Assembly (NCBI GenBank): GCA_015709495.1
Contig: CP054189.1
Span: 186,001 to 250,000 of the forward strand
Length of the DNA stretch: 64,000 nt
Direction of reading: 5' to 3'
Source: Chthonomonadaceae bacterium
GTDB taxonomy: Bacteria > Armatimonadota > Fimbriimonadia > Fimbriimonadales > Fimbriimonadaceae
Shown here piece by piece: positions 6,291-10,759 of the stretch (position 1 is its first letter; the number at the start of each line of letters is the position of its first letter). The notes under the pieces are model-generated. The model ran no database searches and had not been told where the DNA came from. It saw only the letters and a list, made by a program, of their open reading frames with translations. A program made the translations under genes and the position numbers.

Positions 6291-7493
6291 TTGGGAGGTT
6301 GGCGATTAGCGATTTGGGTGATCCTTGTAGGGATCACCCTCGCGTTTTTGTATATGGTTCGGGGCATTTTGTTGCCCTTTGCCGCGGCGCTTATCATTAG
6401 CGTGCTCCTCGATCCCACGGTCCGGAAGCTCCGAATGAGGGGCTACCCGCGTTCGCTGGCGATCGGCCTCGTTTTCCTCGCTTTTTTCGGGGTGCTCATC
6501 GGGATTGGGGCGTGGCTGACTCCCGTCGTGAGCAATCAGCTCGCCAACCTCCGCTCGGGAATCGCCAACTTCAGCAATGAAATCGGCGCCTCCGACCCCA
6601 ACCAGAGCTTCTACATCCGGTGGAACCCCGTCGTCCGCGCACAGGGCGAAGGGCAACTCACCGCCGTGGATAAAATCCTCTCGGAAGTCGCTCCCTATCT
6701 CGACCGGATGGGACTTCCCGCCAATCGGCGCGCCATCGTCGACGAGTACATCCTTCCCTACCAACAGGAGATCGCGGAGTACGTCGAGCGTTTCTTCCAG
6801 AGCCTTTTCGGGGCGCTCCCGGCCATCGCAACCAACATCATTTTCGTGGTGATCACGCCGATGCTGGTGTGGTACATGCTCGTCGACCTCGACCGGCTCA
6901 AGCGACGCGGCGCGCTGTGGATTCCGCCTCAAATCCGCGACGAAACCTTGGACATCTTGCGCGACATCGCGCGCGTTTTCGAGAACTATCTGCGGGGCGT
7001 CACGCTGGCGATCCTTGGGTATATGACGGGAGCTTCGATCGTGCTTTCGATTCTAGGCGCGCCCTATGGGGTGCTGCTGGGCATCCTCTTTGGGGCGATC
7101 TATCTGATCCCGTTTCTTGGCGCGTTGACCTCGCTTGCAATCCTCTTCCTCGCGACCGGACTGAGCGGCAAGGAGTCGATCGTCGGAATCGCTATTGCGT
7201 CGCCTTGGACTGCGGCGGCAATCGTCGCCCTCATTTACGCCGCGTTCGACCGCACTTACGACATGATGGTCTACCCGCGCGTCGTCGGGAAATCCGTGGG
7301 CCTGAACCCGATCGTCAGTTTCTTCGTGGTCCTCAGCGGTGGGGCACTCTTTGGACTGCTTGGGATGATTCTGGCGTTTCCGCTCGCGGGTGCGGTGAAG
7401 GTCGTTCTGGATCGAATCATCAGAGTCACCACCGGCCCCGCGGAGCAGGTCAGCCTGCCCGCCTTGCCCCTGCGCCACAGAATCACTGGCTGA
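6291..7493 (+). CDS. AI-2E-family transporter (PF01594-type permease)
   Basis: A 400-residue polytopic membrane protein. It begins with paired helices (LAIWVILVGITLAFLYMVRG, then LPFAAALIISVLLDPTVRKL), continues with a soluble loop region (about 95-180) and ends with a cluster of five or so helices containing GYMTGASIVLSILGAPYGVLLG and the family phrase PRVVGKSVGLNPIVSFFVVLSGG. Members export small molecules or Na+/H+; the AI-2 link holds for only a few. The TTG start at 6291 follows a TAGGAG ribosome site at 6277-6282. The 3' end overlaps the convergent zinc-ribbon gene by 11 bases. Confidence 0.92.
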   Translation: MGGWRLAIWVILVGITLAFLYMVRGILLPFAAALIISVLLDPTVRKLRMRGYPRSLAIGLVFLAFFGVLIGIGAWLTPVVSNQLANLRSGIANFSNEIGASDPNQSFYIRWNPVVRAQGEGQLTAVDKILSEVAPYLDRMGLPANRRAIVDEYILPYQQEIAEYVERFFQSLFGALPAIATNIIFVVITPMLVWYMLVDLDRLKRRGALWIPPQIRDETLDILRDIARVFENYLRGVTLAILGYMTGASIVLSILGAPYGVLLGILFGAIYLIPFLGALTSLAILFLATGLSGKESIVGIAIASPWTAAAIVALIYAAFDRTYDMMVYPRVVGKSVGLNPIVSFFVVLSGGALFGLLGMILAFPLAGAVKVVLDRIIRVTTGPAEQVSLPALPLRHRITG

Positions 7494-9762
7494 TCGCTTC
7501 TGGCTTTGAGGGGCGGAGCACGCGGGGCATGGGCTCGTCCAAGCGCTTTTCGTCCAACCAGGTCCGAAGTCGATTCGCTAGGTTCGCAACTCCGATCCTC
7601 GCCTCTCTTGGACCAGATCGCAGCTTCGCCGCAAGCACGACCGTCGGAACCTGAAGGTAGACGGCGCTCCCTTCGATCCGCTCAATTACAAGCGACGAAT
7701 CATCGTAAAGTCGCACTCCTGCGATCTCTTCCCTTCGGATTCGGGTTCGCCTAACCGTCCCAATTTCGAGGTAGTCAGGCGTAACGGCGAAACGGCATCG
7801 TGACCGCGCCCGCAGTTCCTCGTCGCGCAGTTCCAGCCGAACGCATGGGCTCCTCCAAAGGAACCTCTTCCGGCGGCCCTTCCCAAACGGCAAGCGACCC
7901 TGTTCGTAGGCCTCGACCATCGCTCGGTCGAATCCGCTTTCGAACTCGCGCTCCTCGGTTCTCATCGGCAGGCGTTGGGCCGTCCGGTGCCAGGATTCGA
8001 GATCGAGGACCTTGCCGGTCCGTTCGCGCAGCGTCGGATTCGTCGTTTGCACGAGCCGCAATCCCGCAGGGGCGTCGTCGAACTCCGAACCACAATCCGA
8101 GCACACGAACCCTGGCCCCGAACTGACCTTTCCGACCCCGATCCAAGGGAGTTGCTCGATCGGTACGGCTTGGCCCGTGTAGTGCCTTGCGAACCCGAAG
8201 TAGTCGCGCCGGGCTTCGATCAGAGTGAGCATCCCCCCGTGCAAGAAGTAGTCGGACCGGCAGCTCTCACAAACCGCGTTGCCCGATTCGGGAGATAGGC
8301 CAGAAGCCACGCGGAGCCACTCTTCCTCGTACTGCGAAGCGACCGGCATCCGCTTGGGGCTCGCAATCAGAGTCCAGCGTCCGTCGGGCTCCGAATCAAA
8401 CTGGGACTGGCAGGCAAGGCACACCCGAACCCGCAAGGACCGGCCGCTGAACTCGCGCCATTCGGAATCGGGGCGAGCCGGCTCGCACGAGGCGTCGGGA
8501 TGGGGAGAGAGCCACCCGCCAAAGAGGTCGAAATTCGCCCGACATCTCTCACACCGCGCTTCATCGACCCGAAGCGACCACCGACCCCGCCGAAACGACA
8601 GCAGGCCCGAACGGCACAGGGGGCACACCTTGATCGGCGAATCGTTCTGGAACTCTCTCACCGGGCCCTCGTGGCAAACCGGACAGGAAGCGGGGTCGAA
8701 CCTCCTCAGGCGAATCTTCGACTCGCGGCAAACCGGACAGGTAAGGCGCGGAAGGGGCGACGCGCGTTCCAGAACCCCGCCGCAGGAGGGGCACTCCCGG
8801 CGCGCGAAGCGAAACGTCATCAGCCGGAGCGCACGCTCCTCAAAGCTCTCCAGATCCTCGGGGACGGGTTCGGCGACGCCCGTTTGGGCGAGGAGTTCAC
8901 CGCACTTCTCCGCGCTGTTCGGCCGCTCCTCCGGCAAAAGCGAGAGCCCAAGTTGCACAGCCCCCCAAAAATGCGCGGCCGAATCGAACGCGACTTTCGG
9001 CACCGGCACGGACACGCCCCGCTTGGGCTCGGGGGGAGCAACGCCGATTCCCAGCCGATAAAGCAGGCAGCAAAGGCCGAATACGTCGGTCGCGGCAGAC
9101 CGGACGGAGCCAGGAACTCGCTGCTCGGGCGCAACGCACGAAGGAGCATATTTCGCTCCCTCCGACCCAAGCACATCGCACAGCCATTGAGTTGTTTGAC
9201 CGAACGAGCACACGATCAAGGTCCCTTCGTCCGTGATCCAGACCGTCTCGAAGTCTAGGCCCAAGAGCAGCGCTCCGCTCCGATGAACCGCTCGCAAGGT
9301 CTCGAGAAGTTGACTCGCGATCGACCTGAGCTCGTCCGGGCGGACCAGTTCCCTTTCCGAAACCCATTGCCCTAGCGGCCGTACCCTCCCTGGCCCGTCC
9401 CAAACCGTGTAAGCAGTCCCGTTTGCGAAGAACCGATCCCGAAGCTGCAGGAGATGCCTCGACGGAGTTCTTCCCAGGTGAAACGCCTCATGAAAGAAGG
9501 CGCTCCGCAACCGGTGGGCGACTTCGGGTCCCCACACCGAGAGGTCAGCCGTGCCCCACGAGTTGAGCGGCAAATGAGGGGGCGATAGCTCGCCGATCCA
9601 ACATTCATCGCCCCGTACGTGGTCTTGGGCTCGGAAAAACTTGACGATTCCCGTGGCGATCGAGGGGGAAGTCCGTTCGTATCTGCCGCTCAGGCCCCAA
9701 TCGCTCCTGGCTCCGTGAGAGCCCTCGGGCGCGGTTTCGTTGAAACCTGGGCGAACAAGCAT
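7483..9762 (-). CDS. Pseudokinase-like protein with eight CxxC zinc knuckles
   Basis: About 759 residues. Residues 30-300 follow a Ser/Thr kinase fold: LLETLRAVHRSGALLLGLD at the catalytic-loop position, CSFGQTT at the DFG position, VAPEQR at the APE position and TDVFGLCCLLYRLG at helix F. The HRD Asp and the DFG Asp are both missing and no VAIK lysine is evident, so it should lack kinase activity. Then come CxxC pairs at 324, 342, 360, 380, 404, 448, 498 and 554, probably zinc ribbons, and a basic C-terminal domain. The ATG at 9762 was chosen because it follows TACAAC by 8 bases and avoids the divergent gene. No known architecture is recognised. Confidence 0.75.
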   Translation of the reverse strand: MLVRPGFNETAPEGSHGARSDWGLSGRYERTSPSIATGIVKFFRAQDHVRGDECWIGELSPPHLPLNSWGTADLSVWGPEVAHRLRSAFFHEAFHLGRTPSRHLLQLRDRFFANGTAYTVWDGPGRVRPLGQWVSERELVRPDELRSIASQLLETLRAVHRSGALLLGLDFETVWITDEGTLIVCSFGQTTQWLCDVLGSEGAKYAPSCVAPEQRVPGSVRSAATDVFGLCCLLYRLGIGVAPPEPKRGVSVPVPKVAFDSAAHFWGAVQLGLSLLPEERPNSAEKCGELLAQTGVAEPVPEDLESFEERALRLMTFRFARRECPSCGGVLERASPLPRLTCPVCRESKIRLRRFDPASCPVCHEGPVREFQNDSPIKVCPLCRSGLLSFRRGRWSLRVDEARCERCRANFDLFGGWLSPHPDASCEPARPDSEWREFSGRSLRVRVCLACQSQFDSEPDGRWTLIASPKRMPVASQYEEEWLRVASGLSPESGNAVCESCRSDYFLHGGMLTLIEARRDYFGFARHYTGQAVPIEQLPWIGVGKVSSGPGFVCSDCGSEFDDAPAGLRLVQTTNPTLRERTGKVLDLESWHRTAQRLPMRTEEREFESGFDRAMVEAYEQGRLPFGKGRRKRFLWRSPCVRLELRDEELRARSRCRFAVTPDYLEIGTVRRTRIRREEIAGVRLYDDSSLVIERIEGSAVYLQVPTVVLAAKLRSGPREARIGVANLANRLRTWLDEKRLDEPMPRVLRPSKPEAISQ

Positions 9763-9823
9763 ACGTCCATGTTGTACCCTCGCAGCCATGGGCCGCCGGT
9801 AAACTCCTCTTGGGTTTGAAACG

Positions 9824-10759
9824 ATGTACAGCCTGATTCTCGCCGCTCTGCTCACGCCGATTCAGTACAACTTTCCGGCCCAGAAACCGGTGGTGTACGA
9901 GATGAAGGTCTCGATGCAGGGATACATCCCGGTCTTGGGTGGAAACGAGGGCACGGCGGAGTTGTTTCTGGGGATCGAAGTCGGCGCCCTGCCCCCCGAT
10001 TCTGAGGGCCGGCTGCGAGCCTACAACGACCTCGTCGAAGTGAAGACGGTCTTCAATGGGGCGACCCTTCCTTTCGGACTGGACAGCATCAAGTCGTTCT
10101 TCCCGAAGACGACGGTCAGCCACTCGCCGTACGGCAAGGTTCTCGCCAACGACGCGCCCGACGTTCAGCTTCCCGTGAGGCTCCCCGGACTCGACCCCAA
10201 GCGGTTCCCGGAGATCACCTACCTTCCCCTCGAGTTCCCGGCCGAGGGCGTCGAAATCGGAAAGAGTTGGACGTTCGTGAGGAAGATCGGCCCGGACGAC
10301 ATGGTGTATACGGTCAAGACCCATTCCCTGGACGACGCGTCCGCGAAGTTCGGCGTTTCCGTACAGCAGACCTCACTCACCTATGAAGACGAGGCGGGGG
10401 AACTCGTCGCAGAAGCCGAGGCAATTCGGAAGGTCGAAACGACGCTGACCGGCCAAGGCGAAGTTCACTTCGACCGCAAGAAGGGGATGGCGACCCAAGT
10501 TCGAGTCGTCACGCAGGCTCAGGGCAACGTGACGGACCTCTCCAGCAAGAAGGTTTCCCAGCGCCAACTGACCACCACGCTCGATGTCCGACTCCGAGGC
10601 ACGGGGCCGTCCATCGAACCGAGCCCGAAGAAATCGAGCGAAGCAGCAGGGTGGCAATCGTGGCTGCAACGCGCAGCCGACTTCGCCACCAACGTCTCCC
10701 GGTCCGTGTCGATGGGTTGGAGCCTCCTCAAGGCGTTCTTGGGAATTCGCGTATCGTGA
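9824..10759 (+). CDS. Exported protein of unknown function
   Basis: A 311-residue protein starting with MYSLILAALLTPIQY, a short signal peptide. The mature part looks beta-rich and contains phrases typical of lipid- or surface-layer-type exported proteins (YLPLEFPAEGVEIGKSWTFVRKI; LTGQGEVHFDRKKGMATQV). The C-terminal 50 residues are helical and hydrophobic (WLQRAADFATNVSRSVSMGWSLL in part). No family is recognised with confidence. It is divergent from the pseudokinase-like gene and 63 bases upstream of the PAAR gene, so it may be in the same transcript. Confidence 0.7.
   Translation: MYSLILAALLTPIQYNFPAQKPVVYEMKVSMQGYIPVLGGNEGTAELFLGIEVGALPPDSEGRLRAYNDLVEVKTVFNGATLPFGLDSIKSFFPKTTVSHSPYGKVLANDAPDVQLPVRLPGLDPKRFPEITYLPLEFPAEGVEIGKSWTFVRKIGPDDMVYTVKTHSLDDASAKFGVSVQQTSLTYEDEAGELVAEAEAIRKVETTLTGQGEVHFDRKKGMATQVRVVTQAQGNVTDLSSKKVSQRQLTTTLDVRLRGTGPSIEPSPKKSSEAAGWQSWLQRAADFATNVSRSVSMGWSLLKAFLGIRVS

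Follow-up and report, generated by a model that had tools for sequence, protein, structure and literature searches.

The gene at positions 7483..9762 of the minus strand of the window (the whole stretch of 64,000 nucleotides that was analysed) encodes a 759 aa protein consisting of a degenerate kinase domain, a zinc-ribbon array and a PH-like domain. This protein is probably best regarded as a non-catalytic member of a kinase-zinc-ribbon-PH family of the Armatimonadota, a bacterial group on which little work has been done. According to the proposed scheme, the members of this family would have a Ser/Thr kinase followed by eight CxxC motifs, forming four putative C4 zinc ribbons, and a PH-type domain. 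The zinc-ribbon/PH module would be the conserved working part, docking on a partner or ligand, while the attached kinase would be able to phosphorylate in most relatives. In the genus of the window genome, and independently in other lineages, this kinase would have undergone decay of its active site, leaving a kinase fold that may serve as an interaction scaffold. Bacterial pseudokinases as such are already known, and what is new here is a derived pseudokinase, retained by selection, in a family of this architecture. Among the papers searched, none was found on bacterial zinc-ribbon pseudokinases or on this family in the Armatimonadota.

The open reading frame starts at an ATG at position 9762 and ends with a stop codon at 7483-7485 (minus strand), although translation could equally well begin at the in-frame ATG at 9789, which is preceded by an AGGAG motif at a distance of 14 nt. 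Its 3' end overlaps tail-to-tail by 11 bp (7483-7493) with a convergent gene for an AI-2E/PerM-type transporter (6291..7493, plus strand). On the other side, a divergent gene (9824..10759, plus strand) codes for a conserved, predicted exported protein of about 300 aa with no Pfam match, and 35-62 bp separate the starts of the two genes. A chance reading frame or a frame artefact can be ruled out, the frame being common to full-length relatives. No membrane helix was seen by eye in the window protein, which is probably cytoplasmic.

The kinase-fold domain covers residues 24-300 (8863..9693, minus strand). The Pkinase match of the window protein alone is weak (E 2e-4, below the Pfam gathering score), but its homology to kinases is certain from the matches of its relatives and from the predicted fold. 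Pkinase is matched by 24 of 26 family members (best 3e-37), and a family profile matched kinases in the PDB with an E value of 1e-60, the nearest solved structure being PpkA (5hnv, E 1.4e-60). An AlphaFold2 model based upon a 33-row alignment, which was deep over the kinase only, had a mean pLDDT of 81, with values mostly >90 in the kinase part, for which PpkA was again the best solved match (TM 0.83 by target length). The bilobal fold of the protein kinase superfamily, which the initial annotation had considered visible and had proposed to check by structure prediction, is thus borne out both by profiles and by the predicted structure.

The residues that a Ser/Thr kinase requires for activity, namely the beta-3 Lys and the Asp of both HRD and DFG, are present in most relatives but missing from the window copy, as had been noted from its sequence. 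In register with the relatives, Gly replaces the beta-3 (VAIK) Lys at residue 57 (K57G; 9592..9594) and the catalytic HRD Asp at residue 168 (D168G; 9259..9261), Thr replaces the metal-binding Asn of HRDxxxxN at residue 173 (N173T; 9244..9246) and Ser replaces the DFG Asp at residue 186 (D186S; 9205..9207), all of these positions being on the minus strand. The HRD position reads LLG. The motif GLD had earlier been offered as the counterpart of HRD, and while the absence of the catalytic Asp was correctly perceived, the Asp of GLD lies at the position of the lysine in HRDxK and not at that of the catalytic residue. The alignment with relatives further indicates that the glycine loop is missing. 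Among the structural kinase residues, those retained include E92, E213, D226, and R280, and a Lys in the beta-2 region (K41) is loosely reminiscent of WNK kinases. A pseudokinase is defined as a kinase fold lacking one or more of the Lys, HRD Asp and DFG Asp residues (PMC12599244), and by its motifs the window protein falls within this definition. The protein presumably carries out no phosphotransfer, and the earlier suggestion that it is a non-phosphorylating regulator is probably correct in view of the kinase fold, the loss of catalytic residues and the CxxC pairs. Such a regulator might bind a ligand or nucleic acid, as was also proposed.

The zinc-ribbon array extends over residues 306-575 (8038..8847, minus strand), where most of the family-conserved residues are kept. 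The eight CxxC pairs counted in the initial annotation are all present, at residues C324/327, 342/345, 360/363, 380/383, 404/407, 448/451, 498/501, and 554/557 (nucleotides 8793-8782, 8739-8728, 8685-8674, 8625-8614, 8553-8542, 8421-8410, 8271-8260, and 8103-8092, respectively, minus strand). As the 16 Cys recur in almost all of 41 relatives, these pairs are not due to chance. The CxxC knuckles are conserved as pairs, which is the mark of C4 zinc ribbons, and there are weak zinc-ribbon profile matches besides. The spacing of the pairs suggests that they form four C4 zinc ribbons, and the array would presumably bind zinc. A sequence search for solved relatives of this part yielded weak matches only, the best with an E value of 0.005 (E3 ubiquitin ligase). 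In two members from one genus (L171 of genome G031 and L165 of genome G090), CxxC pairs four and five lack several of their cysteines, so that the zinc array also can be partly lost.

The last 170 or so residues, previously described as a new domain, in fact comprise a helical linker and a PH-type domain. The linker (residues 588-620; 7903..8001, minus strand), recognized from the alignment and the predicted structure, carries the family motif LEDWHRxARxLPxxxEE. The PH-type domain (residues 635-742; 7537..7860, minus strand) was modelled by folding the C-terminal 171 residues alone (pLDDT 75, about 90 in the barrel), and in the prediction seven strands form a bent barrel, with a C-terminal helix as its cap. 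The model matched PH folds with VIA-align Z scores of 10.7-13.0, the best match being 7yis (Z 13.0, 2.3 A, 93 residues), with many other PH-type structures above Z 10.6, and Foldseek results for this domain agree. A new fold is thereby ruled out. Because the score for bPH_6 (17.6 bits, E 0.0039) is under the Pfam gathering threshold of 22, the PH assignment is made at the fold level only. The domain shares its fold with bacterial PH domains (bPH_6; GRAM) without reaching a Pfam gathering score. Among the family members, bPH_6 was detected in 4 of 26 at E values up to 0.01, and a distant relative (L207) gave a sub-threshold match to GRAM.

Long relatives of the window protein, with 27-37% identity, were found by protein search in about half of 61 related genomes, and a family profile search detected the gene in 44 of 85 genomes of the bacterial family. 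Across the phylum, 52 of 291 Armatimonadota genomes encode the zinc/PH part. Full-length relatives whose parts follow one another in this order occur both in the bacterial family and in the order, and the named records are from the Fimbriimonadaceae, to which the window genome belongs, and from uncultured Armatimonadetes. Based upon the phylum search and one genome scan with the kinase motif only, the kinase-zinc-PH family appears to be restricted to this phylum. A search of plasmids found none carrying the zinc/PH part. In three genomes outside the order the protein is longer (about 900-970 aa); HRD, DFG, and Lys are intact, and the zinc array is likewise present, as is a PH-like end. In these three (L206, L207, and L208) an inserted charged segment, probably helical, separates the array from the PH-like end, and L207 and L208 also contain an extra N-terminal zinc ribbon ahead of the kinase. 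Separately, a Lachnospiraceae open reading frame of 736 aa (L091:1-2208) matches the family profile in two separate stretches, possibly tandem kinase domains.

The initial annotation implied a distinct type of pseudokinase, and had named close homologues with intact catalytic residues as evidence against its reading. Such homologues do exist: full-length relatives of the same architecture, 33-37% identical to the window protein, retain these residues, and the usual motifs in most relatives are GRGGFG, VxKELAP, HRDxKPSN, and DFG. The three members from outside the order have intact HRD, DFG and Lys, so that the ancestor was most likely active, and since family members, including these three, are mostly intact, the window copy can be regarded as a derived pseudokinase. 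In G001, from the same genus, the Lys is changed to Leu and DFG to GFG. The Lys and the DFG Asp are also lost in G033, G004, and G089, where HRD is replaced by HGN, HGD, and HGG, respectively. Elsewhere HRD reads HRN (G027), HRG (G095 and G096), or HKN (G090), and in G034 a Lys to Asn replacement is the sole change.

In a tree constructed from the zinc/PH region only and rooted on the members that lie outside the order, the degenerate kinases branched at four separate places, or five if G034 is counted. These changes are read as losses because the outgroup state is intact. Forcing the ten clear degenerate cases into one clade cost 115 log-likelihood units, and such a clade was rejected (p-AU 4.5e-7), although the test is weakened by the group having been named post hoc, once the alignment had been seen. 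The ratio of kinase to zinc branch lengths, measured on a fixed topology, was 1.06-5.6 for the degenerate rows vs 0.39-1.09 for the intact ones, these rows not being independent events; the value of 8.85 obtained with the window pair stems from near-zero branches and was not used. With only four to five independent events, the p-value of a row-based rank test on these ratios overstates the support. The zinc cysteines are nearly always kept where catalytic residues are lost. From these sequence comparisons, the pseudokinase state is derived in the window genus and a few other lineages, and the catalytic residues were lost independently, at least four times. The repeated loss of the kinase active site, with the zinc part kept, suggests that the latter carries the essential function.

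The degenerate kinase could instead mark an early pseudogene stage, the gene being under relaxed selection and on its way out in this lineage, and several observations fit this explanation. The evolution of the kinase part is accelerated, and the gene as a whole is found in some relatives but not in others, as can be seen from several kinase-less genomes in which the PerM gene lies directly beside the exported-protein gene. In many Fimbriimonadaceae the common order is Dsb/VKOR, MnmA, PerM, the kinase gene (on the opposite strand) and the exported-protein gene, whereas in L186, L189, L191, L192, and L194, which do not have the kinase gene, the PerM and exported-protein genes are directly adjacent, with a clean absence at the site. 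The window genome and a second genome of the same species (G094) are 98.9% identical in DNA over 17.7 kb, and of the 11 changes between them in the kinase part five are non-synonymous. However, both of these genomes and G001 have an intact reading frame, none of the 16 zinc cysteines has been lost, and only one of 13 changes in the zinc plus C-terminal part is non-synonymous. Over the whole gene there are 18 synonymous and 6 non-synonymous changes (dN/dS 0.11), and the window gene is under purifying selection. The synonymous and non-synonymous changes are distributed as 6/5 in the kinase, 7/1 in the zinc and 5/0 in the C-terminal part. The window copy also keeps 34 of 67 family-conserved positions in the kinase (51%), the corresponding figures for the zinc and helix/PH parts being 49 of 55 (89%) and 10 of 12 (83%). 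Although the numbers of changes are small, they show constraint on the zinc/PH part and less of it on the kinase part. In light of these results, we consider it unlikely that the gene is being lost.

The neighbourhood of the kinase gene yielded no genomic partner. The divergently encoded exported protein, characterized by the motifs GFxPILGG and LPVRLPGLDxKRFPDITYLP, is encoded beside the kinase at about half of the loci that were inspected. Its gene occurs in 74 of 85 genomes of the family, compared with 44 of 85 for the kinase gene, and is found in most genomes lacking the latter too, so that co-occurrence does not support it as a dedicated functional partner. STRAD is a pseudokinase that allosterically controls LKB1, and two other Pkinase genes above the cut-off are present in the window genome, one of which might be controlled by the window protein in a similar manner. 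Neither of these Ser/Thr kinase genes is adjacent, no link to the window gene was found and intact family members would need no such partner; allosteric control of this kind is accordingly quite doubtful. That the kinase pocket carries out other chemistry, such as AMPylation or glutamylation, or binds ATP in an alternative mode, has a precedent in SelO and SidJ (PMC12599244) and could draw on K41, but it is very improbable, as the Lys, both Asp, the metal-binding Asn and the glycine loop are jointly gone, and the replacement residues differ among the degenerate lineages and so do not point to a shared new active site.

The reading of the window protein as a non-catalytic, zinc/PH-based family member can be compared with known systems. 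With PpkA and PknB-type bacterial Ser/Thr kinases it has the kinase fold in common, but it lacks all catalytic residues of an active kinase and has zinc-ribbon and PH parts in addition. Similarly to GRK2, it combines a kinase with a C-terminal PH domain, and Foldseek lists GRK2 for both the whole model and the C-terminal domain. GRK2 is not known to have a zinc-ribbon array, and the superposition of its whole chain on the window model is poor (rmsd near 30 A), indicating that the likeness is one of parts and not a kinship of the whole. A 2025 review recognizes seven pseudokinase families, five of them wholly pseudokinase, among 42 families of bacterial Ser/Thr kinases (PMC12599244); the terms "Zinc," "PH domain," and "Armatimonad" are absent from it. 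Those seven (ActPs1-3, GLW, CP1, DYD, and DLHK) likewise show a bacterial Ser/Thr kinase fold with substitutions of Lys, HRD, and DFG. In the GLW pseudokinases HRD is replaced by GLW and the kinase is followed by a transmembrane region, whereas the window protein has LLG followed by the zinc array and PH-type domain. In contrast to the five wholly pseudokinase families, that of the window protein contains dead and intact members together.

Given at least four losses of the active site and a zinc/PH module under selection, we tentatively suggest that catalysis may be optional in this phylum-restricted regulator, and that even those members whose kinase is intact could possibly have a main function other than catalysis. 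Bacterial pseudokinases have mostly been described as whole families and are largely unexplored experimentally (PMC12599244). The mixture of dead and intact members marks the zinc/PH module as the first part to study, and within this one family some of these members are neighbours in the tree, as with G090 (HKN) and G031 (HRD) from one genus; such matched pairs allow one to ask what role a kinase domain has after its catalysis is gone.
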